A DNA stretch of 64,000 nucleotides from Brevundimonas mediterranea (lineage in GTDB: Bacteria; Pseudomonadota; Alphaproteobacteria; Caulobacterales; Caulobacteraceae). The notes under the pieces are model-generated. The model had not been told where the DNA came from. It made no database searches and was given only the letters and a program-made list of their open reading frames with translations. Positions 50,761-63,351 of the stretch are shown one piece after another. The stretch lies in assembly GCF_011064825.1 (NCBI RefSeq), contig NZ_CP048751.1, positions 1,860,001 to 1,924,000 of the forward strand, read 5' to 3'. The translations under genes and the position numbers were made by a program. Within the stretch, counting starts at the first letter, position 1, and every line of letters starts with the position of its first letter.

Positions 50761-53739
50761 ATGATTAGTCGAGGTTCTGAGTGGCGCCGTTGGGAGCCTC
50801 ACATCCATGCGCCCGGGACCGTGATGAACAATCAGTTCACCGGCCCCACGGCGTGGGAGGATTATCTATCCGCGCTTGAAAGGGCCACGCCGCTCATCGA
50901 GGCGATCGCCGTCACCGACTATTATGTCACCGACACCTATGAGCGGGTGTTGCAGCACAAGGCCGACGGGCGATTGCCGAAGGCGACGCTGATATTTCCC
51001 AATGTCGAGCTGAGACTGGATGTGGCGACCGCGAAGGGCGGATTCGTAAATCTGCATCTGTTCGTCAGCCCCGAGGACCCGGACCATATCGCCGAACTGC
51101 AGCGCCTTCTATCCCGGCTGCACTTCACCGTGCAGCAGGATCGCTACGACTGCACCCGCGCCGACCTGATACGCCTGGGCAAGAAGGCCGACCCGAACAT
51201 AACCGACGACGGCGCCGCGCTCTCCTACGGGGCGAACCAGTTCAAGGTCAATTTCCGGCAACTGCGCGAGGTGTTCGGCGAGAGCGGATGGGCCAAGAAG
51301 AACGTCCTGATCGCCGTCGCCGGCGGCGCCACCGATGGCACATCGGGCGTGAGGGAGGCCGCCGACCAGACCATTCGTCGCGAGATCGAGGGATTTGCCG
51401 ACATCATATTCGCCAGCAGCCAGGCGCAGCGGGAGTTCTGGCTCGGTCAAAAGGATCTCGACGCCCAGGCGATCCGCGCCCGATATGGCGGTTTGAAGCC
51501 CTGCCTTCATGGCAGTGACGCGCACAGGCTCGAAGACGTCGCCACGCCGTTCGGCGACCGATTCTCATGGGTCAAGGGCGGGCTGGAATTCGACACGCTG
51601 CGACAGGCCTGCATCGACCCCCGGGGCCGGGCCCATGTCGGCGCCGAGCCGCCGAAGTCCGCAACGCCGTCCCAGGTTATTTCCGAGATTGAAATACTCG
51701 ACGCGCCTTGGCTCCAGACGTCGACCATCCCTCTGAACTCCGGCCTGGTGGCCATTATTGGCGCGCGGGGATCGGGCAAGACGGCCCTGGCGGACATGAT
51801 CGCGGCGGGCTGCGATTCCATATCGGACGAGGCCTGGGCCGCCGATGAATGGGCGAACCCCTCGTTCCTGGTGCGCGCCCGGCCTCTTATCGGCCAGGCC
51901 AAGGTGAAGGTCAGTTGGGCGGCGGGCGCTCCAGGCACGCGGTCGTTGGATGGGGCCGATGCCAACGGCCCGCTGAGCTATCCTCGGGCGCGATACCTGT
52001 CCCAGCAGTTCGTCGAGGAACTGTGCTCATCCAGCGGCCTGACCGACGGACTCCTCCGCGAGATCGAGAGAGTGATCTTCGAGGCCCATCCCGATCATGA
52101 TCGTGACGGTGCGTTGGACTTCGCCGAACTGCTGGAACATCGCGCTTCACGCCATCGTCTGGCGCGCGATCGTGAGGCCGAGGCCGTCTCCCAGATCTCG
52201 GAGCGGATCGGCACTGAACTCGAGAAGGAAAAGCTGGTCGCCAGCTATGAGGCCATGGTCGCGCAGAAGCGGCAACTGGTCGACGCCTATACCGCCGACC
52301 GCGCCAAGCTTGTTTCGGCGGGCAGCGAAAAGAGGGCTCAGCGTCACACCGAGCTGGCTGGCGCGGCCAACGAGGTCAGGACCAAGTTGCGGCGGTTCAC
52401 AAACCAGCGGCAGACCTTCCTGGCCCTTCAGGATGAGGTGAGGGACCTTCGGCGCAACCAGGCGCCGGAGACACTGCGGCAAACCCAGGCCAGACATACG
52501 CACAGTGGAATGTCGAACGACCAGTGGGCCGCTTTCATTCTGGATTATACCGGGAAGGTCGATGACGACCTGAACGACTACGTCAAATGGGTTGATGGCA
52601 AGATCGCGGGGCTGAAGGGCGCTGCACCGCCAGCCGGTGATGCGAACACGGCGTTCTTTGCTGATGAGACAGACCTGACGACGCTGTCGCAGGCGGTCCT
52701 GGAAGCCGAGATGGGGCGGCTGGAAAAACTGGTCAGCTCCGACAAGGAAACGCAGCGGCAATACACGGCGCTGTCGGGCCGGATCGCGACCGAGACTGCG
52801 GCGATGCAGACCCTCGCGGCCAAACTTCAAGACAGCCAAGGCGCCAAGGATCGTGCCCGGGATCTGCAGGCCGAACGCGAAGAGGCCTATGGCCGGGCTT
52901 TCGACGCCCTCATCGCCGAACAAACCGTTCTGGAGGAATTGTACGGGCCCTTGATGGCGCGTCTGGCGGCGGCCTCCGGGACGTTGAAGAAGCTGTCCTT
53001 CTCTGTCGCGCGGGTCGCCGACGTGGCCCAGTGGGCGGGGCAGGCCGAGGAGGGTTTGATCGATCTCCGCAAGGGCGGGGCGTTCCGAGGCAAGGGCACC
53101 TTGCTTCAGAAGGCCAACGAGGTCCTCAAGCGGGCTTGGGAGACAGGGTCGTCAGCTGAGGTGGTGTCGGCGATGGCGGAGTTTCGTCGGCTTTATCAGA
53201 AGGAACTGCTCGACCACTCGCCGGTCGCCCACACCGAGCAGCTGGAGTTTCGGGCCTGGTCGAAACGCTTCGCTCAATGGCTGTTCAGCACTGGTCATAT
53301 CGAGATCCACTACGGCATCGAATATGATGGCGTGGATATCCGCAAGCTGTCTCCCGGAACCCGCGGCATCGTCCTGTTGCTGCTCTATCTGGCGTTGGAC
53401 GATGGCGATGGCCGCCCGCTGATCATCGACCAGCCGGAGGAGAACCTCGACCCGAAATCCGTCTTCGAAGAGTTGGTGGGTCTGTTCATCGAAGCCAAAT
53501 CGAACCGCCAGGTGATCATGGTGACGCATAACGCCAACCTTGTGATCAACACTGACGCCGATCAGATCATCATCGCTGAGTCAGGGCCGCATCCGCACGG
53601 TGCCTTGCCGCCGATCACCTATCAGTCCGGTGGCCTGGAGAACGCTGACATCAGAAAAGCGGTTTGCGACATCTTGGAAGGTGGGGAAGGCGCCTTCCAG
53701 GAACGAGCCCGCAGATTGAGAGTCAGGCTGGAGCGATGA
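50761..53739 (+). CDS. TrlF/Ppl-like PHP-domain SMC-type ATPase
   Basis: 992 residues. An N-terminal PHP-phosphoesterase domain has EPHIHAPGT near residue 13, AVTDYY near 54 and HGSDAH near 250, the metal-binding His/Asp sets. An ABC/SMC-like ATPase follows with Walker A GARGSGKTALAD near residue 337, long coiled coil (residues 460-800), LSPGTRGIVLLLLYLAL as signature and Walker B LIIDQPEENLDP near 888, then MVTHNANLVIN. Proteins of this architecture are labelled TrlF, and a PHP-ATPase called Ppl was reported as antiphage. A GGGGGAAG ribosome site precedes the ATG. The HNH gene follows by 54 bases. Confidence 0.85.
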   Translation: MISRGSEWRRWEPHIHAPGTVMNNQFTGPTAWEDYLSALERATPLIEAIAVTDYYVTDTYERVLQHKADGRLPKATLIFPNVELRLDVATAKGGFVNLHLFVSPEDPDHIAELQRLLSRLHFTVQQDRYDCTRADLIRLGKKADPNITDDGAALSYGANQFKVNFRQLREVFGESGWAKKNVLIAVAGGATDGTSGVREAADQTIRREIEGFADIIFASSQAQREFWLGQKDLDAQAIRARYGGLKPCLHGSDAHRLEDVATPFGDRFSWVKGGLEFDTLRQACIDPRGRAHVGAEPPKSATPSQVISEIEILDAPWLQTSTIPLNSGLVAIIGARGSGKTALADMIAAGCDSISDEAWAADEWANPSFLVRARPLIGQAKVKVSWAAGAPGTRSLDGADANGPLSYPRARYLSQQFVEELCSSSGLTDGLLREIERVIFEAHPDHDRDGALDFAELLEHRASRHRLARDREAEAVSQISERIGTELEKEKLVASYEAMVAQKRQLVDAYTADRAKLVSAGSEKRAQRHTELAGAANEVRTKLRRFTNQRQTFLALQDEVRDLRRNQAPETLRQTQARHTHSGMSNDQWAAFILDYTGKVDDDLNDYVKWVDGKIAGLKGAAPPAGDANTAFFADETDLTTLSQAVLEAEMGRLEKLVSSDKETQRQYTALSGRIATETAAMQTLAAKLQDSQGAKDRARDLQAEREEAYGRAFDALIAEQTVLEELYGPLMARLAAASGTLKKLSFSVARVADVAQWAGQAEEGLIDLRKGGAFRGKGTLLQKANEVLKRAWETGSSAEVVSAMAEFRRLYQKELLDHSPVAHTEQLEFRAWSKRFAQWLFSTGHIEIHYGIEYDGVDIRKLSPGTRGIVLLLLYLALDDGDGRPLIIDQPEENLDPKSVFEELVGLFIEAKSNRQVIMVTHNANLVINTDADQIIIAESGPHPHGALPPITYQSGGLENADIRKAVCDILEGGEGAFQERARRLRVRLER

Positions 53740-53793: not shown

Positions 53794-54558
53794 ATGAGGC
53801 CGTCGGAAACGACGATCAAAAGGCTCTTCGCGACGTCGGGGAATCTCTGCGCCTTTCCAAGGTGCGACTTGCCCATCGTCGAAGCCGTGGGGACGATCAC
53901 CGGCGAAATCTGCCATATCCGGGCGCGAAATGAGGGCGGCCCCCGCTTCGACGTCACCCAGAGCGAGGACGAACGGCAGGGCTTCGAAAACCTGGTTCTG
54001 CTATGCCGTCGACACCATAAAATGGTGGATGCCGAACCCGATGTCTATTCCGTAGAGGCGCTCGAGGAGATCAAGCGGATCCGAGAAGGTGATATGGGAC
54101 GGCCCGAACAGGCTACCGATGCTTTCTATGCGAAGATCCTCCTCGGCGACCTTCGGCGCATCGAGGTGACCAACAATAGTGGCAACGTCGTCATCGACAG
54201 CCCCGGCGCGATCATAGCCAAAACCGTCAATGTGAAGACCACCCGTAACACGGTAAAGATTCAGCCCGCGGCGGGCACGATCGGGGCCGATCTCAAGGCG
54301 AGCCGGTATACTCAGCACCTGATCAGCCGATACAATGAATTCGCGAGCGCCGATAAAACGCGCGACACGAAGTTCAGTTACGAGGCTATTTCCAAGAATA
54401 TTGAAGCGAACTTCAGAGGCCCCTGGAGGATGCTGGCGATCGAGGACTTCGACGCCCTGTGCGTCTATCTTCAGCAGAGGATCAGCCGAACGCGCATCGC
54501 CAAGTCAAACGCGGCTAAAGGGATGAAGGCCTTCTCCAGCTTCGAGGACTATACCTAA
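53794..54558 (+). CDS. HNH endonuclease-like protein
   Basis: 254 residues. The N-terminus carries an HNH-like zinc fold: CAFPRC near residue 19, GEICHIRARNEGGPRFD near 38 and ENLVLLCRRHHKMVD near 65, with the expected Cys, His and Asn. The C-terminal two thirds has a beta-rich repeat-like linker (NNSGNVVIDSPGAIIAKTVN) and a helical domain of unknown role, perhaps a sensor. It is downstream of the TrlF-like gene and may be its partner. Confidence 0.78.
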   Translation: MRPSETTIKRLFATSGNLCAFPRCDLPIVEAVGTITGEICHIRARNEGGPRFDVTQSEDERQGFENLVLLCRRHHKMVDAEPDVYSVEALEEIKRIREGDMGRPEQATDAFYAKILLGDLRRIEVTNNSGNVVIDSPGAIIAKTVNVKTTRNTVKIQPAAGTIGADLKASRYTQHLISRYNEFASADKTRDTKFSYEAISKNIEANFRGPWRMLAIEDFDALCVYLQQRISRTRIAKSNAAKGMKAFSSFEDYT

Positions 54559-54726: not shown

Positions 54727-56127
54727 ATGGCCCAGAAACCTCAGCGCATCATCGAGGTGGCGGTGATCGACAAGGTCGGTCCGATCACGGCCGAGCGGCT
54801 GATGGCGATGTCCGAGGCTGAGTGGGGCCTGCTGAGGCAACGCATTACCGACGCTCGGCGAGGACGGGATCACCGATCCATTGCCGCCTGTCTTCGTTGC
54901 GGCGGCGCCGTCTTCATCAAGGCGCGCGCCTTCCGTCAAAAACGGCTTCCCTATTTCGCCCACTTCAAGGGCGCCGTTGCCGCCTGTCCTTGGTTTACCG
55001 GCGATACCCAGGACCCCGATAGCCTGAAGGCGGGCCAGTACCACGGTCACCAGGAAAGCCCGGCGCACCGGCTGATCTGCGAGCAGATCGCCCAACTTGC
55101 CAAACAGGATCCAAGCTGCACGCGGGTGGCAGTAGACACCTATCTTGCACCTACCGCCGGCGGCCATGGCCGATACCCGGACGTACTCGTGACGTATACT
55201 AACGGCCGCACGGTCGCCTTCGAGATCCAGTTGTCCAACACCTTCCAGACGGAGATTTCCGACCGGTCACTGCATTACAGGCGCGAAGGGGTCGGTTTGA
55301 TCTGGGTTCTGTTGGGGCACGAACTCCAGTCGGGCGATCTGCCGCAGTCGTTCCGTGACGTAATCCTCCGCCATCGGGACAACGCCTTCGTGCTCGATCA
55401 GGCGGCCATAGAGACGTCTCTAGCCGCTCGACGCCTGATGCTAACCTGCTTCCTGCGGAAGTCGGACGGCAGCTTCGGCGACGAGAGACAGGTCGCTGTC
55501 AATGATCTCACTTTTCCTGAAACCGGCTGGCCCTACTATGAGGATCGGGTCACGCCGAGTTTGCTGGCGCGAGGGGAGGCCGTGCGCGCGCCTTGGAAGG
55601 TGGCGCTGCAGGCCCGCACTGATTTCTCCTACTCGGAGCTCACGACGCCGGCGTTCATTGCGGCCAACAGCGATCTGTGTGCGCGCGTGCCCGGTCTGGC
55701 GCTTTGGCAGCATCAAAACCTCGATCGTTGGCAATTTGCGCACTTCATCGCGGTGATGTTCTCGACACTTCGCTACGCCGCGGGGGCGTTCAAGAACTAC
55801 GCTTCCCGACAGCCGAACATCCAGGCGATGCTCAACAGCAAGTTGTCGGGACACCCCCTCATGCCCTTCGCGCCGGTTCTTCAAACGGTGCTCGCCCGAA
55901 CCTCGGCAGGCCCCCTGCTCGAGGGCACCGTCGGCGTGCACCTCCGAAGGGCACTCGAGTTGGGCGAGGGCAATCTAGTGCTAGAGGCGCATGCGATCTG
56001 GCCGGCGATTCACGTCTTGCTGCCAGAAGTTTTCGATGGGGCGCTGCGGCTACAGCTGGAGACTCTTGGCGCCCTTCCGGCCTGGGCGAAGTCGAGCACC
56101 GACCATCTGGCTTATTCTTACGAATGA
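54727..56127 (+). CDS. CoiA-like PD-(D/E)XK nuclease (DUF6035-like)
   Basis: 466 residues. A zinc-finger-like start CLRCGGAVFIKARAFRQKR and FAHFKG (residues 57-82) is followed by HQESPAHRLICEQIAQLAK and the nuclease core YPDVLVTYTNG plus FEIQLSNTFQTEISDR (about 150-180), as in competence protein CoiA and DUF6035. The C-terminal 270 residues have no assignment. It stands alone between two apparent units. A role in foreign DNA handling is inference. Confidence 0.7.
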   Translation: MAQKPQRIIEVAVIDKVGPITAERLMAMSEAEWGLLRQRITDARRGRDHRSIAACLRCGGAVFIKARAFRQKRLPYFAHFKGAVAACPWFTGDTQDPDSLKAGQYHGHQESPAHRLICEQIAQLAKQDPSCTRVAVDTYLAPTAGGHGRYPDVLVTYTNGRTVAFEIQLSNTFQTEISDRSLHYRREGVGLIWVLLGHELQSGDLPQSFRDVILRHRDNAFVLDQAAIETSLAARRLMLTCFLRKSDGSFGDERQVAVNDLTFPETGWPYYEDRVTPSLLARGEAVRAPWKVALQARTDFSYSELTTPAFIAANSDLCARVPGLALWQHQNLDRWQFAHFIAVMFSTLRYAAGAFKNYASRQPNIQAMLNSKLSGHPLMPFAPVLQTVLARTSAGPLLEGTVGVHLRRALELGEGNLVLEAHAIWPAIHVLLPEVFDGALRLQLETLGALPAWAKSSTDHLAYSYE

Positions 56128-56202: not shown

Positions 56203-56236
56203 TGGACAATACATGCACACAACGATATTGTTGTGT
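56203..56236 (+). promoter_or_regulatory. Promoter with 7-bp palindrome, likely autoregulated
   Basis: A -35 TGGACA (56203-56208) and -10 TATTGT (56226-56231) are 17 bases apart. The perfect inverted repeat ACACAAC/GTTGTGT (56217-56236, six-base centre) covers the -10 box and ends two bases before the ATG at 56239. The transcript would be nearly leaderless. The XRE protein encoded second in the operon is the obvious candidate repressor. Confidence 0.65.
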
Positions 56237-56238
56237 TC

Positions 56239-56703
56239 ATGATCCCTTCCCTTATTGATCCGGGCTTTGGCGCGCCTTGGGCGGTTCTGCCTTCGGGCGT
56301 CCACGAGACGACGCTGGAGGAGGTTGCCGCCCGGTTCGCCACCACGCCACACCGACAGTGGTTGTTCGGTGGTTTTCAACGGGCGGTGGAGGCGCTCCGG
56401 CTCGCCGGATGCCGTGCCGTCTACCTCGATGGCAGCTTCACCACAGCGAAAGACCACCCCGGTGATTTCGACGGCTGCTGGGATCATGCGGGGATGGACT
56501 TTTCCTTGCTTGACCCCGTTCTCCAGAACTTCGCCGGCAAGCGCGAGGCTCAAAAAGCCAAATATCTCGGCGAGATGTTTCCGGCCTTCGCCCCGAACGG
56601 CGCGACGGGCACCTTCCTCGATTTCTTCCAGATCGAGAAACATTCGGGCCAGCCCAAAGGCATTTTGCGGCTGACGCTCGCGACCTCGAAAGGGGCGTTG
56701 TAA
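56239..56703 (+). CDS. DUF6932/MNT-like nucleotidyltransferase
   Basis: 154 residues from MIPSLIDPGFG; a GTG two codons earlier lies in the operator and is less likely. VYLDGSFTTAKDHPGDFDGC near residue 60 has the GS...DxD pattern of minimal nucleotidyltransferases, and the family is annotated DUF6932. Such enzymes are toxins or antitoxins in MNT-type modules. It overlaps the XRE-ImmA/IrrE gene by one base (TAATG). Confidence 0.75.
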   Translation: MIPSLIDPGFGAPWAVLPSGVHETTLEEVAARFATTPHRQWLFGGFQRAVEALRLAGCRAVYLDGSFTTAKDHPGDFDGCWDHAGMDFSLLDPVLQNFAGKREAQKAKYLGEMFPAFAPNGATGTFLDFFQIEKHSGQPKGILRLTLATSKGAL

Positions 56704-57962
56704 TGATCACGAACGAAAGACAGTACCGGTCCACGCGCGCGGCGCTGGACCAGCTGAAAGCCTCGGCGGGCGCGCCGGCGGCCACCAACGTCGATCCCGC
56801 GTTCGCCGTCATCGCGCGCGGTGCGCTCCAAAGCCAAGTGGCGGAACTCGAAGCCGATGTCGCCCTTTACGAGGCCCTGAAGTCAGGAGCGCAGACGACG
56901 TTCTCGGCCGCACGCCTTGCCGATCTCCCCGAGACGCTCATCCGCGCACGGATCGCGAGAGGCATGAGCCAGAAGGATCTCGCGGATTTTCTGGGGCTGA
57001 AGGAACAACAGGTCCAGCGATACGAAGCCGAACGCTATCGATCCGCGAGCCTTGAGCGTTTGATCGAGGTCTCCGATGCGCTCGACGTGCGCATCGAGAA
57101 CCGTGCGTCGCTCGCCGGGAACGGGAGCCTGGAGTCGGTCGATCCCACCGCCTGGCAGGCTTTCCCTCTGGCCGAGATGTACAAGCGCGGTTGGTTCGAA
57201 GACTTCTCCGGAACGCTGACGCAGGCGCGCAAGTCCGCCGACCACCTCGTGCCGGCCTTCCTGCGGAGTGGCTCGGCCCGATTCGTCCCTGCCGGCTTGC
57301 ACCGGAAGTCTGTGCGGTCGAACGGCGCTGTGCACGAACCGGCGATCGCGGCATGGGAAGCGCGTGTGCGACAGCTGGCCGCCCGAAACCCGCCGACGGC
57401 AACCTTCGATCCCGCCTTGATCGATGATGCCTGGATCGCTGCCCTCGTCGCCCTGACCCTGGATGCCGACGGCCCACTGAAGGCCGTCGACCACCTGCGC
57501 CAGATCGGCATCGCCTTCGTTGTCGAACGGCATCTACCCGGAACCCTGCTGGACGGCGCAGCCATGGGCTCGTTCGACGGCTACGGGCTGATCGGCCTGA
57601 CGCTCCGCCATGACCGGCTGGACAATTTCTGGTTCACGCTTTTGCACGAGATCGGACACCTCAAGCTCCACATCGGCCCGGAAGCCTTTGCCGCCATCTT
57701 CGACGACACGGAGAGCCCGTCGGACGAGCGCCACGAAGAGGAGGCAGACGGCTTTGCACGGAACGCGCTGCTGCCTGTGGCTCAATGGGATCTCGCGGTG
57801 TCACGGTTCTCGCGCACGGAGAAAGCAGTGCTGACTGACGCCAAACGCTTCGGCGTCGGCCCAGCGGTCATCGCCGGCCGGGTTCGTCGCGAGGCTGGCG
57901 ACTACACTGTTCTCCGTTCTCTCGTCGGCGCCGGGGAAGTGCGCCGCCAATTTGGTCTTTGA
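56703..57962 (+). CDS. XRE regulator-ImmA/IrrE metallopeptidase fusion
   Basis: 419 residues. The N-terminal 75 are helical. The XRE HTH is at about 75-120 (RARIARGMSQKDLADFLGLK, EQQVQRYEAERYR). A central region is followed by the zinc-peptidase motif HEIGH near residue 317 in FTLLHEIGHLKLH, with a likely third ligand in EEEADGFARNALLP near residue 345. ImmA/IrrE peptidases cut repressors under stress. The fusion and the upstream palindrome suggest self-control of this operon. Confidence 0.88.
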   Translation: MITNERQYRSTRAALDQLKASAGAPAATNVDPAFAVIARGALQSQVAELEADVALYEALKSGAQTTFSAARLADLPETLIRARIARGMSQKDLADFLGLKEQQVQRYEAERYRSASLERLIEVSDALDVRIENRASLAGNGSLESVDPTAWQAFPLAEMYKRGWFEDFSGTLTQARKSADHLVPAFLRSGSARFVPAGLHRKSVRSNGAVHEPAIAAWEARVRQLAARNPPTATFDPALIDDAWIAALVALTLDADGPLKAVDHLRQIGIAFVVERHLPGTLLDGAAMGSFDGYGLIGLTLRHDRLDNFWFTLLHEIGHLKLHIGPEAFAAIFDDTESPSDERHEEEADGFARNALLPVAQWDLAVSRFSRTEKAVLTDAKRFGVGPAVIAGRVRREAGDYTVLRSLVGAGEVRRQFGL

Positions 57963-57969
57963 GGTTCAA

Positions 57970-59055
57970 ATGGCGATCGCCCCGACCCAGTATGTCCCCC
58001 TCCTGCGCTGGCGGATGGGCGAGTATCAGGCCCTGTTCAAACTCGCGGCCGGACTGAAGCCGGCGGTCGTTCCTCTAATCGAGGTCCTGCCGCCGGACTT
58101 CGATTTCGAGCAATGGCGGCCGAAGAAGGAGATCGACGACCACCTCGGTGGTTTCGCGGCCAAGCTGGAAAAGAAGTGGAGCGATCGTCCCGCGCTCATC
58201 GACGGCCGCCAGTTGGCCCCTGCGACCCGCATGGCGGACGGCCGGCACACGATGACGTTCCTGTTCGATGAGGCCCGCAAGCTTGGGGCCTCGTTGACGC
58301 CGGTCATCAACCTCGAGAGCGACGCTGCCTACCGGAAGGCGGTCCACGACATCGATGCTATCGACATGAACGGCGCGGTCCTGCGGTGCACGCTCGAGGA
58401 GGCGCTCGATCCAGACTTTGACGATCATGTTGATGCCTTGCTCAAAGCCTTGGCGATCGACATTGCCCAACTCGACATCGTACTGGATCTGGGGGCGCCA
58501 GCCTATTCGCCCCAAGGCCCGCTTGTGGGCGTCATACGCGCCGCCCTGAACGGCGCGAGAATGCTGTCCGCGCGTAGCGTTGTCGTTATGGCGGCGTCCT
58601 TCCCCGAGACGATGACCGAGCTCAAACTCCCGATCCAGACCGTGTCGCGCGAAGAGTGGCGGCTTTACGCAGCCTTGGTGACGGCCCAGTCGCCCCAGGA
58701 ACGACGTCCGTCCTTTGGCGACTATGCGGTCGCGGCGGTTAAATTCGCCCAAGGGGATATGCGATTTATGCGGGGATCCCCGAACGTACGCTATGCGGTG
58801 TCGGACGGCGGCTGGCTGGTCGCGCGCTCCAAACGCAAGAAGGGCGAGACTAACCAGGCCTACCCCGGCCTATGCGGTCTGATCCTAAGCTCGGGTCAGT
58901 ACCACGGCGCAACGTTCTCGGAAGGCAGCGCCTATATCGAGGATTGTCACGCTGGCGCCGCCAAGCGCGGCAACCCCACGGTCTGGAAGTGGGTGGCGAC
59001 CAACCACCATATCACTGTGGTCTTGGACGATCTCGCCAAACTGCCCGCGCCTTGA
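57970..59055 (+). CDS. Beta-family (T4 beta-like, PF14350) protein
   Basis: 361 residues from MAIAPTQYVPLLRWRMGEYQ. Further family features are KPAVVPLIEVLPP, LDIVLDLGAPAY and a C-terminal YPGLCGLILSSGQYHGATFS. The beta_protein family was named from phage T4 and has no settled biochemical role. It occurs often in defence islands. Seven bases after the peptidase gene; its last 44 bases overlap the convergent sce7726 gene. Confidence 0.8.
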   Translation: MAIAPTQYVPLLRWRMGEYQALFKLAAGLKPAVVPLIEVLPPDFDFEQWRPKKEIDDHLGGFAAKLEKKWSDRPALIDGRQLAPATRMADGRHTMTFLFDEARKLGASLTPVINLESDAAYRKAVHDIDAIDMNGAVLRCTLEEALDPDFDDHVDALLKALAIDIAQLDIVLDLGAPAYSPQGPLVGVIRAALNGARMLSARSVVVMAASFPETMTELKLPIQTVSREEWRLYAALVTAQSPQERRPSFGDYAVAAVKFAQGDMRFMRGSPNVRYAVSDGGWLVARSKRKKGETNQAYPGLCGLILSSGQYHGATFSEGSAYIEDCHAGAAKRGNPTVWKWVATNHHITVVLDDLAKLPAP

Positions 59056-59653
59056 GCGTTTCCCTGACCCGCGCGCCTAGCACGCGTCGCGGCAAGGCGG
59101 AGGCGAGAATAGGATACAGAGCATCGCGAGGTGCTCTGAGCGTGCGCTCCGGGTGCCCGAGATCGCGTAGCATTTGAACGATCTCCGGGCGCCACAGCAA
59201 GCGCGCGAGTGTCACCGGATCGATAGAGCGGTTGACCTTTTCGTCACGGATTCGCCTAAGCGCGACTTCACCGTTGGCGCACCGTCGCGCTAGCACGACC
59301 CCCCACCAGTCGGGCACGAGGAGCCGAGCCGCGTCGAGGTGACGTTCGGCCACGATGAGAGAGGCCTTATCGACGACTTCGCCATAAGCGCTGACTTGGA
59401 ACGGAAGGCGGGCCAGGGTATCCGCTTCGGCCTTGATCTCTAGCCCGCGGATGTGGCCGTTGATCACGGCGATATCGATCCGGCAGGATCCGTGATCGAG
59501 ACCGAGTTCATCGATCACGAGCGTATCAGCGCTGCGCATCGCGGAGCCGAGCATACGTGCATAGACTGCACGCCGTACGTCTCCATCTTTGAACAGGGTT
59601 GCCATACCCCGGCATAGCTCTCGGGAATTGCTCAGGGCAAGCGGTTTGGCCAT
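59012..59653 (-). CDS. sce7726-family protein
   Basis: 213 residues. ELGLDHGSCRIDIAVINGHI and RGLEIKAEADTLARLP, then QVSAYGEVVDKASLIV, are the hallmarks of the sce7726 family, which looks like a PD-(D/E)XK nuclease fold (D..ExK). A second Met at 59605 could be the start. It lies tail to tail with the beta-family gene, overlapping it by 44 bases. The same two families are neighbours in other genomes, so they are likely functional partners. Confidence 0.8.
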   Translation of the reverse strand: MAKPLALSNSRELCRGMATLFKDGDVRRAVYARMLGSAMRSADTLVIDELGLDHGSCRIDIAVINGHIRGLEIKAEADTLARLPFQVSAYGEVVDKASLIVAERHLDAARLLVPDWWGVVLARRCANGEVALRRIRDEKVNRSIDPVTLARLLWRPEIVQMLRDLGHPERTLRAPRDALYPILASALPRRVLGARVRETLKARAVWRDRPRPQ

Positions 59654-59825: not shown

Positions 59826-59988
59826 TGTCAATCGGCGTCTAAAAGGGACCCCCTATCGGCGTGCAATAGGGACCCCCTTTTGAGGTTCGGGATGGACGTC
59901 ACGAGCGCACCGCTTGCGAGGGTTGGGGCGTAGGGAGGGCGTAGCCCGACCGGAGGCTCAACCCTCGCCTGGCGTTCTTCGTGGAGGG

Positions 59989-60717
59989 TTAGCTGCGGTG
60001 TTTGAAGCGCCAGCTGTCGTTGCCGGTCTCGACGATGTCGCAGTGGTGGGTGATGCGGTCGAGCAGGGCCGTGGTCATCTTGGGATCGCCGAACACGGTC
60101 GGCCATTCGCCGAAGGCGAGGTTGGTCGTGACGATCACCGAGGTCCGCTCGTAGAGCTTGCTGATCAGGTGGAACAGCAGCTGGCCGCCCGAGCGGGCGA
60201 ACGGCAGGTAGCCAAGCTCGTCGAGGACCACGACGTCGAGGCGGCAGAGGTGAGCAGCCAGCGCACCGGCCTTGCCCAGGCGGGTCTCCTCCTCGAGGCG
60301 GTTCACCAGGTCGACGGTGTTGAAGTACCGGCCACGCGCCCCGGCCCGCACGACGTTGGCGATGATGGCGGTGGCCAGGTGGGTCTTGCCCGTGCCGGTC
60401 CCGCCGACCAGCACGATGTTGCGCCGGTTCGCCAGGAAGGCGCCGCTGTGAAGCGAGCGCACCAGCCCCTCGTTGATCGGCGTGTCGTCGAACACGAAGG
60501 CGTCGAGGTCCTTCACGGCGGGCAGCCTGGCCGCCGCCATCCGGTAACGGATGGAAGCCGCATGCCGGTGGGTCGTCTCGGCGCGCAGCAGGTCGGCGAG
60601 GATCTCCATGGTCGTGCGCTTGCGCTGCAGGCCCGTGGTGACCGCCTCGTCGAAGGCTCCGGCCATGCCCTTGAGGCCCAGGCCGGTCAGGGCCGCCATC
60701 ATCTCATGCCGCTGCAT
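59989..60717 (-). CDS. istB: IS21 helper ATPase IstB
   Basis: 242 residues from [17 protein letters not shown]+ ATPase with Walker [14 protein letters not shown] near residue 95 and Walker [15 protein letters not shown] near residue 160, then [10 protein letters not shown]. IstB activates the transposase. The start overlaps the istA end by 14 bases, as normal for IS21. Confidence 0.93.
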
Positions 60718-62253
60718 GCATGCCTCGCAAGCTGTCGTAGCGGTCGCAGTCCGCCAGAGGCGGATGCCGCAGCGCCAGGTCATCGGGCGTGACGATGCTC
60801 AGCGGCCGGGGCGGTTCGCGCCGGCGCGCCAGGATGTTGAGGATGACGTCGTCGCTGACGGTCCCGGCGGCGAGCGCCTCGCGCGCCGCGGCCTCGACCG
60901 GCTCCAGGCCGTCTTCCAGCACCGCCGCCAGAACCCGCACGAACCGGCGATCGGCTTCGTCGCCCGCACCCAGCTTGCGCCTCAGGCGGGCCAGCCCCGG
61001 CGGCAACTCCCAGTCCTGGAACGGCGCGCCATTGCGCAGGGCTCCGGGCTTGGTCGCCAGCACCGGGGGAGGTAGTGCCAGGGATCGTAGAGGGTCCGGT
61101 CACGACCGAAGAACCGGCGATGGTCGGCGACGACCTCACCCTCGCAGCGCACGACGATCCGGTCGGCATAGGCGCGGACCTGCACCGTACGGCGCCCGGC
61201 CTTCGCCATCACCGAGTAGCGGTTACGGTCGAAGCTGATCAGGCAGGTCCCCGTCACCGCGTGCTCGCTCTCGTGGAAGCCGTCGAACGGGCCCAGCATC
61301 GGCTGCAGCGCCGGCCGCTCGGCGGCCAGGGCCTGAGCAACCGTCAGCTCTTTCTGCTCGGGGTGCTGACGCAGCTCGCCCCAGCGCCGGCACTCCGCCT
61401 CCAGCCAGCCGTTCAGCTCCTCCAGGCTGGTGAAGCGCAGGCGCGGCTGGAAGAACCGTCCCCGGGCCGTCTGGACCTGGTGTTCGACCTGGCCCTTCTC
61501 CCAGCCCGCCGCCGGGGAGCAGGCCGTCGGCTCCACCATGTAGTGGCTCGCCATGACCAGGAAGCGCCGGTTGAACACCCGGTCCTTGCCCGTGAACACC
61601 GTCGTCACCGCCGTCTTCATGTTGTCGTAGATCCCGCGCGTCGGCACGCCGCCGAAGAAGGCGAACGCCCGCGCATGCGCGTCGAACAGCATCTCCTGGG
61701 TCTCGCGCGGATAGGCCCGAACATAGATCGCCCGCGAGGCGCACAGCCGCATGTGCGCCACCTTCACCCGCATCGGCTTGCCCGCGATCTCCACGTCCTC
61801 GTGGCTCCAGTCGAACTGGTAGGCCTCGCCCGGCCGGAACATCAGCGGGATGAACGATGGCGCGTCCGCCACGCCCCGGCGTCGCTTCAGCCGCCACCCC
61901 GCCGCGTAGCGCCGGACCGCGTCGTACGACCCGTCGAACCCCTCGCGCACCAGCAGGTCATGAACCCGCGTCATCCGCAGCTTCTCGCGCCGCGGCCGCG
62001 CCTCGTCCTCTTCCAGCAGCTCATCGAGCCTGGCCTGGAACGGCGCCAGCCTCGGCAACGGCTGCACCGCCCGCCGATAGGCGAACTCCGCATCCGGCTC
62101 CCGGATCGCCTTGCGCACCACCTTGCGCGACAATCGAAGGTCACGCGCGATCGCCTTGATCGCCTTCCCGGACGCAAACTCGCGCCGAATCCTCAACACC
62201 GTCTCCAACACCAACATCCCGAACTCGCCGCCTGACATCCGCCAAGCCGCCAC
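60704..62253 (-). pseudogene. istA: IS21 transposase IstA, frameshifted
   Basis: From 62253 the DDE integrase-type transposase reads well: HTH KAIKAIARDLRLSRKVVRKA, catalytic Asp in YQFDWSHEDV, Asp in GIYDNMKT and Glu in GWEKGQVEHQ. At a C-run near 61066 the frame breaks after PWHYLP. The expected tail (ALRNGAPFQDWELPPGLARL to [11 protein letters not shown]) continues in another frame to 60704. One base missing or two added in the homopolymer explains it; a sequencing error is possible. Confidence 0.85.
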
Positions 62254-62301
62254 CGTTAGACCTCAGGAATGAGGGGTCCTTATTCGACGCCGATCACACC
62301 G

Positions 62302-63351
62302 CTAACGGGGTCCCTTTTCCACGCCGATCCACAGCCAGAGGTCGGCGAGCGGCTGAGAGGCGATTGCGGCGACCAAATTTTCCCGATTGAGGCCGGCGAT
62401 CAGCGGCAGTAGCGCGGCGCGGAATTGTGGGACAGTCACGCCTGCCAGAATGCGGTAGTCAGCGAGCGCCGCGGGGTCGGCGTTGTCGATGGTCGCTTGA
62501 AGGGCCGTCCGAGTCGGCTCCTGAAGCTGCGGCCAGAAATCCGGAAAAGCGGCGATGAACGCGATGGCGCGAGGGCGGTTCGCCGGCTCGAGGTTGTCTA
62601 TGAGCCTGACGATCGCCAGCGATATATCCGGCCAGGCCTCAGCGGCGCGTTCGCGCACCGCGACCAGCGAGGGGATTATCTTGCGATGGAGCGGCTCCCA
62701 TTGCGCGGGCACGCCCTTGAGAATGGATTTTGCGAGCACCGTGCCGAAGTTGCGGACGTTCTGAGCGCGGACGCGCGCCAGGTAGCGCTGGTCGACATAG
62801 TCCAGGATGCGCGCGTATTCCGTTGGAAAGCCGGGCGACTGCACGTCGATGTCGTACAGCTCGAAGATCGCTTTGCCTTGCAAGGGCTCCTGCGACAGAA
62901 CAAGATCGACCGCATTGACGAGGTGAAGCCGCACCAGCTCGGGCGACGGCGCGAAGAGATCCGCCTCGGCCGAGAAGGCCGGGTGCGCGCAAAGATGTCT
63001 ATCTTCGCGCAGGCGCTCCAGATGCGTTCGGGCGATGCGATTGACGACCTGAGTGTTGGCCGTTGCGTCTTCGAGGATGCCTCCCTCAAGCTGAAGCAGC
63101 TTGGGGATATCGCCTGTGACGGTCGCGTTGTCCCACGCCTGAAGAAATGCCGTGGCGGCCGCATCGCCCATAGCGCTCAGCTCGCGATACTTGGCGATCA
63201 GGTCGTAGACCAGGGCGACCCAGGCTGAGGTGAGTGCGCCACGCAGCGCGCCGGCCTTGTAGGCTTTCACCGCATCAAGAAAATACACCTTCGACTGCGG
63301 ATGCCGAATTCGGGTGATGAGGATGTCGAGATCAACAAATCCAGTGTCCAC
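62302..63351 (-). CDS. HEPN-like protein, 3' end replaced by IS21
   Basis: 349 residues as read, but the last ten or so (WIGVEKGPR) come from the IS inverted repeat, so the original C-terminus is lost. The N-terminal helical region (AYKAGALRGALTSAWVALVY) followed by DRHLCAHPAF near residue 118 gives an R-x4-H motif typical of HEPN RNases. The remainder is an all-helical repeat of unknown type. It begins three bases after the gene upstream, so they formed one operon. It may be a broken defence effector. Confidence 0.6.
   Translation of the reverse strand: MDTGFVDLDILITRIRHPQSKVYFLDAVKAYKAGALRGALTSAWVALVYDLIAKYRELSAMGDAAATAFLQAWDNATVTGDIPKLLQLEGGILEDATANTQVVNRIARTHLERLREDRHLCAHPAFSAEADLFAPSPELVRLHLVNAVDLVLSQEPLQGKAIFELYDIDVQSPGFPTEYARILDYVDQRYLARVRAQNVRNFGTVLAKSILKGVPAQWEPLHRKIIPSLVAVRERAAEAWPDISLAIVRLIDNLEPANRPRAIAFIAAFPDFWPQLQEPTRTALQATIDNADPAALADYRILAGVTVPQFRAALLPLIAGLNRENLVAAIASQPLADLWLWIGVEKGPR

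Follow-up and report, generated by a model that had tools for sequence, protein, structure and literature searches.

Four closely packed genes lie at positions 56203 to 59653 of a 64,000-nucleotide stretch of the Brevundimonas mediterranea genome (contig NZ_CP048751.1, positions 1,860,001 to 1,924,000; hereafter the window), and they raise the question of whether they form a defense system and, if so, whether that system already has a name. An earlier note, made from the sequence alone, had proposed a defense or toxin–antitoxin (TA) unit and knew of no named system with exactly this set. We find that the four genes, here called A to D, are probably a chromosomal anti-phage cassette of the abortive-infection type, one that combines a DUF6932-bearing form of PD-lambda-2 with the beta-cII core of gop-beta-cII. 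Homology to these two systems and defense-rich neighbors favor the defense part of the proposal; the activity of the cassette and the roles of its genes we infer from homology and layout.

Gene content and protein families

Profile searches identified all four families named in the note (nucleotidyltransferase, Xre-ImmA/IrrE, beta and sce7726). Genes A, B and C are tightly coupled on the plus strand, with one base common to A and B (TAATG) and 7 bases between B and C, and D is convergent to them. Gene A (56239–56703; 154 amino acids) matched DUF6932 (E = 1.2e-31), its sole Pfam match at E ≤ 0.01, and is predicted to encode a minimal nucleotidyltransferase with the motif GSx9DxD at residues 65–78. 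A structure model of A was similar to nucleotidyltransferases, including a MntA-HepT entry (VIA-align fold comparison). Profile-profile comparison with ten small nucleotidyltransferases of the order aligned A in the catalytic register (12% probability, P 0.0024); probability and P were better than for six control pairs, whereas the raw score was 23.9 against 25.0 for the A-B control.

Gene B (56703–57962; 419 amino acids) encodes an N-terminal helical domain, an Xre helix-turn-helix (HTH) domain at about residues 77–135 (HTH_3, 7e-12) and an ImmA/IrrE metallopeptidase with HEIGH at 315–319 and Glu345 (Peptidase_M78, 5e-12). Its nearest match among sequences of solved structures was 434 Cro (1.8e-4), and the profiles of A, C and D had no relevant match there. 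Gene C (57970–59055; 361 amino acids) encodes a beta protein (Beta_protein PF14350, 4e-69). Gene D (59012–59605, minus strand; 197 amino acids) belongs to the sce7726/cII family (NF033832 sce7726_fam, 2e-39) and carries a PD-(D/E)XK-like motif, E49..D60..E72xK74, numbered on a longer open reading frame of 213 amino acids.

Active-site residues of A, B and D were invariant or nearly so across relatives. H315, E316, H319 and E345 of B were kept without exception in 54 of 54 B proteins, and the D motif residues were invariant in 62 of 62 D proteins. Since its active site is likewise conserved, A is probably an enzyme.

Conservation and distribution

A profile scan of a genome collection for B found at least 541 relatives, among 595 pattern stretches listed. 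We examined the best 80 of these with profiles built here, so that all counts are conditional on B (loci and genomes are cited by our L and G numbers). The neighborhood of the four families was conserved, a check that the earlier note had called for: A lay directly upstream of B in 80/80, C or a piece of it was present in 80/80, and D in 77/80. The three loci without D were two contig ends (L108, L170) and an apparently broken locus (L155). The 80 loci span at least 11 phyla as named in the sequence records (Pseudomonadota, Bacteroidota, Chloroflexota, Planctomycetota, Verrucomicrobiota, Actinomycetota, Nitrospirota, Acidobacteriota, Sumerlaeota, Hydrogenedentota and Margulisiibacteriota). Many are metagenome bins, with isolates in Pseudomonadota and Bacteroidota. 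All four genes also occurred in three plasmid loci (L030–L032) and on one contig of a viral collection (L171).

The unit is rare in less selective samples. The beta family was found in 13 of 398 phylum genomes, with the full set identified in two of them (G000, G855). DUF6932 was found in 13 of 199 family genomes; of the eight examined, four had the full set (G000, G067, G171, G180), one had A-B-C without D (G091) and three had DUF6932 in other contexts (G006, G155, G185). The first 140 residues of B were matched in 6 of 289 class genomes. Phage records contained B relatives in 4 of 50,697 cases, at 24%–31% identity, and beta in six.

Genes neighboring the four-gene loci were rich in defense families. 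From 187 neighbors, the 178 of at most 900 amino acids were kept, and the 145 scanned with PADLOC matched 199 families at 1e-10, compared with two families for 90 control genes taken from ten dispersed regions of the genome that contains the window; these counts are of families, not genes, and the control comes from one genome. The 25 families listed out of the 199 include GajA/GajB, AbiEi/AbiEii, PtuA, ThsB and PD-Lambda-3, each matched by one or two genes. Phage integrases made up 4 of the 145 neighbors.

Relation to named systems

The defense-system search matched every gene to a known model, and no single named system fitted the whole set. B matched PD-Lambda-2_B (1.7e-79, over model positions 71–396 only), C matched PD-Lambda-2_C (7e-43), D matched cll (1.9e-23) and A matched PDC-M63A (5.9e-11), its sole PADLOC match at E ≤ 0.01. 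We therefore rejected the notion that the unit has no named relatives. The narrower claim of the earlier note, that no named system has exactly this set, agrees with PADLOC and with a literature search judged mostly from titles and abstract openings, in which we found no such system and no paper on DUF6932; it needs the qualification that B-C and C-D each match part of a validated anti-phage system.

One of the two is PD-lambda-2, which shares the gene order, a small first gene, an Xre HTH-ImmA/IrrE protein and a third gene of the beta family. According to the available excerpts of Vassallo et al. 2022 (PMC9519451), three genes, the first of them HigB-like, together give protection in PD-lambda-2, its B is toxic alone and is neutralized by A, and C is needed against lambda yet not for neutralization. 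The first gene here is instead DUF6932, D is present where none was found in the PD-lambda-2 relative L071, and the betas fall in separate clades. The N-terminal domain of B also differs, being HigA-type in classical PD-lambda-2, while here the PADLOC model was matched only from position 71. The cassette is like PD-lambda-2 in how it works on our reading, and we do not file it as a member because neither a HigB-like A nor the PD-lambda-2 N-terminal domain of B was found.

The second relative is gop-beta-cII of satellite P4, in which a convergent sce7726/cII gene comes after beta, arranged just as C and D are here; the two D proteins share 26% identity across 196 aligned positions. Available excerpts of Rousset et al. 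2022 (PMC9122126) describe protection against lambda and P1 and toxicity of Gop without beta. The systems differ in that P4 has Gop directly upstream of beta where the cassette has the HTH-ImmA gene B, a 27-nucleotide gap between beta and cII where the cassette has an overlap, and a beta from a distant clade. Gop as an ImmA-type peptidase was considered and rejected: it lacks HExxH, has no meaningful match to B or to ImmA profiles and appears by eye to be a two-helix membrane hairpin plus coil (L038, 247–648), unlike A and B.

Other candidates were compared as well. PDC-M63AB is a two-gene PADLOC candidate, and no M63B match was present among the hits listed for A–D; the available excerpt of PMC12409345 reports no defense by it in the host used. 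Two further loci, in which a DUF6932 gene abuts a gene of 316–322 amino acids (L089, 5351–6765; L090, 5367–6928), are possibly PDC-M63AB pairs. Type VII TA systems (MntA-HepT) share the MNT-type nucleotidyltransferase with its GS..DxD motif; A's partner is instead an HTH-metallopeptidase, and no HEPN family was found among A–D at E ≤ 0.01 in Pfam. Neither A nor B matched an AbiEi or AbiEii model (type IV TA) at E ≤ 0.01 in PADLOC. B weakly matched several RmrA models of RosmerTA (best 7e-11, in HTH or HExxH stretches), far below its PD-Lambda-2_B match, and PADLOC gave no RmrT-named match among A–D.

A possible exchange of modules around beta

Comparison with PD-lambda-2 suggests a plug-in logic, in which the peptidase and beta are retained and the small first gene is exchanged along with the N-terminal domain of its partner. 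Outside the N-terminus, profiles of B and of nine PD-lambda-2-type B proteins (L071–L079) aligned over 321 columns (E 1e-90), whereas the N-terminal profiles aligned over 20 columns only (P 0.002). Compared with PD-lambda-2, the cassette has a different A, a different N-terminal domain of B and an additional gene, D. In L071, a HigB-like gene (weak PF09907 match, 5e-5, below the cut-off) is followed by B and beta, with no sce7726 match. The PD-Lambda-2_B model matched 81 of the 398 phylum genomes; many of these matches cover only about positions 1–125, a pattern that we would expect of stand-alone HigA-like proteins.

Parts of the cassette also occur separately. Two loci contain A and a short HTH protein with only the N-terminal part of B and no peptidase (L265, 1034–1920; L266, 1028–1923), and a third contains a partial DUF6932 with a short HTH (L263, 1477–2135). 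We regard these pairs as a candidate stand-alone TA family. Together with the operator in L265 (below), L265 and L266 fit the idea that the peptidase was fused into a TA pair. In L088 (6309–8839), a B-like open frame of about 600 codons comes after DUF6932 and includes an HTH and part of the peptidase profile. Nine loci have an ImmA-only protein (frames of 165–193 amino acids, with HExxH) directly before beta (L203, L205, L208, L211, L212, L214, L217, L218, L220), and five of them (L205, L212, L214, L217, L218) also have a convergent sce7726, so that the shared core is found in yet another layout.

A tree of 65 beta proteins, rooted at the midpoint only, placed all 35 four-gene members in one clade of 39 (support 97/82), together with four beta-D loci. 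The PD-lambda-2-like betas of L071, L172 and L175 formed a separate clade (100/99; first gene checked in L071 only), the P4 beta fell in a distant clade (100/99) and the beta of L086, an A-B-C locus without D, was on a long branch outside the four-gene clade. This pattern suggests, without proving, that the four-gene form was assembled once, with TA pairs used as plug-ins. The cassette ties two separately discovered E. coli defense systems to each other through a common beta core, and while relatives of B are widespread, the set is unnamed in the resources searched.

A conserved operator before gene A

The palindromic, near-leaderless promoter described in the earlier note was borne out and recurs in relatives. 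The A-B-C promoter (56203–56231, plus strand) has a −35 box TGGACA (56203–56208), a 17-nucleotide spacer and a −10 box TATTGT (56226–56231). The ATG of A (56239) follows 7 nucleotides past the −10 box, so a leaderless message is predicted. A 20-bp palindrome, ACACAAC-gatatt-GTTGTGT (56217–56236), covers the −10 box and is presumed to be B's own operator. The operator of 434 Cro reads ACAA..TTGT, and Q102, Q103 and Q105 in the presumed recognition helix of B were invariant in 54/54. With zero mismatches, the core is a single site in the window (chance expectation 0.43 sites at up to one mismatch), and the whole 3.38-Mb genome has just one further exact match, with a GC-rich centre.

Among 76 of the 80 four-gene loci (L121, L139, L161 and L168 were skipped), the core ACAAC-6-GTTGT with at most one mismatch preceded A in 72, compared with 0.3% of mononucleotide shuffles; the exceptions were L117, L118, L151 and L156. 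Seventy-three loci had a site with no more than two mismatches, and in 65 of them the first ATG lay 3–5 nucleotides past the core. In 44 of 76, a −35 box matching at least four of six positions had precisely the spacing seen in the window. The operator likewise occurred with the A-HTH pair L265 and at two B+C loci (L034, with one mismatch, and L209); it was looked for and not found near L266, L263, L088, L089 and L090. Control of D by B through the same operator was rejected: the best match upstream of D has 2–6 mismatches (77 loci), and the only other exact core in the genome is the GC-centred one.

The start of D and its overlap with C

The earlier note had D starting at 59653, the end of the 213-amino-acid frame. 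The start is most likely 59605, because a promoter-like element, TTGCCC-16-GCTAT (59614–59640, minus strand), stands 8 nucleotides ahead of that codon and comparable elements stand before D at many of the listed alphaproteobacterial loci (L100 and L111 being exceptions).

The 3' ends of the convergent genes C and D overlap by 44 bp (59012–59055), a length of 2 mod 3. Taking the 3'-most piece of C, the overlap was 32–98 nucleotides and always 2 mod 3 in all 77 loci having both genes; with the best-scoring piece, it was in that phase in 76/77, a difference probably explained by C genes split in two (L093, L100, L110). Nine more four-gene loci share the phase, two of which (L083, L084) are on contigs already counted. 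The distance from a His-His codon of C to a Trp codon of D was 31 nucleotides in 64 of 72 measurable loci. Outside the four-gene set the lock is looser: among 20 beta-plus-sce7726 loci, which include the near-duplicates L035 and L039, 11 were in phase 2, two in phase 1, three in phase 0 and four, including P4, did not overlap. A simple ratchet could explain the lock, if both protein ends are needed and no indel is free; regulation through the complementary 3' ends is also possible.

Proposed mode of action and alternatives

On the reading that we consider probable, the HTH of B, perhaps with A, would bind the operator and keep A-B-C expression low and self-limiting. A and B would form a TA core in which, by analogy with PD-lambda-2, the metallopeptidase B is the harmful partner and A its restraint. 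MntA nucleotidylates HepT, and A may restrain B in a similar way. C, again by analogy, would be a switch that is needed for defense and dispensable for restraint, either freeing B on infection or being required for phage sensing. D, expressed from a promoter of its own, would be a nuclease-like partner to C, and the infected cell would stop growing or die. The weakest step is deciding which partner is the toxin and which the antitoxin, because A is of a different family from the first gene of PD-lambda-2. The conserved operator with its leaderless start and the locked gene overlap offer sharp points at which these roles can be tested.

The roles of A and B could also be reversed, which we consider possible, if clearly less probable. 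A would then be an AbiEii/MenT-like nucleotidyltransferase toxin acting on RNA or protein, freed on infection when the ImmA domain destroys the antitoxin function of the repressor B; C would act as the trigger and D as a helper nuclease. The stand-alone pairs of A and a short HTH without a peptidase have the usual layout of a toxin and an HTH antitoxin, and the conserved active site of A suits an enzymatic toxin. Makarova 2009 (PMC2701414, as available in excerpts) covers MNT-HEPN, treats Xre-ImmA proteins as predicted TA components and predicts that these proteins cleave Xre repressors or antitoxins. The toxicity of B, not A, in PD-lambda-2 and the rescue by A (PMC9519451, excerpts) point the other way, as does the missing AbiE profile match. 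It is unlikely, though worth weighing, that the C-D pair is the real effector, a nuclease with an inhibitor or targeting partner, and that the part of A-B is confined to regulation, sensing infection and derepressing the operon. Several of the 20 beta-plus-sce7726 loci lack any A or B match (e.g., L033, L035, L040), ImmA-only proteins precede beta in nine loci, the D motif is invariant and D seems to have its own promoter. Against this, PD-lambda-2 protects with three genes, its relative L071 has no D match, and toxicity in P4 is ascribed to Gop, which is neither A, B nor D.

A plain addiction module or prophage remnant that defense islands merely collect appears improbable. The layout is TA-like, the context is mobile (an adjacent IS21-like element and the integrases among the neighbors), and the defense role of the cassette rests on homology and context. 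Two homologous systems nevertheless protect E. coli from phages (on the excerpts cited above), and the neighbors matched far more defense families than the control (199 versus 2). Beyond the anti-phage reading of this one cassette, we tentatively raise a broader and rather doubtful picture, in which a single modular defense superfamily, with beta and in most branches also ImmA at its center, has PD-lambda-2, gop-beta-cII and this cassette among its branches. Ready-made TA pairs (HigB/HigA, DUF6932/Xre) would have been plugged in through fusion of their antitoxin with an ImmA protease; here the nucleotidyltransferase would silence the protease by covalent modification, beta would be the infection switch and the antisense-locked beta-cII pair would deliver a nuclease.

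Neighboring genes in the window

Within 6 kb of the unit, the window also encodes a TrlF-family ATPase, an HNH-like protein and a PD-T7-3-like protein. The AAA-like ATPase gene is upstream in the island (50761–53739, plus strand; NF045780, 1.8e-209) and matched Ppl_antiphage at 2.8e-32, below the cut-off. Between it and the unit are genes for an HNH/SAVED-effector-like protein (53794–54558, plus strand; PDC-M68A, 1e-26) and a CoiA/DUF6035 protein (54727–56127, plus strand). On the other side, the protein encoded at 62302–63351 (minus strand) matched the defense model PD-T7-3 (1.2e-29).

A stretch of 10.8 kb that includes the unit is 99.97% identical to L083 (B. vesicularis S00192). We do not take this as evidence of recent transfer: the sequence on the far side of the IS21-like element is 100% identical too, and L083 therefore probably comes from a very closely related strain. 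An insertion of about 2.5 kb in the window (59826–62333) is absent from L083, and its two minus-strand genes resemble istA/istB of IS21 by eye. The insertion is some 220 bp upstream of where D probably starts, and the promoter of D is undisturbed.

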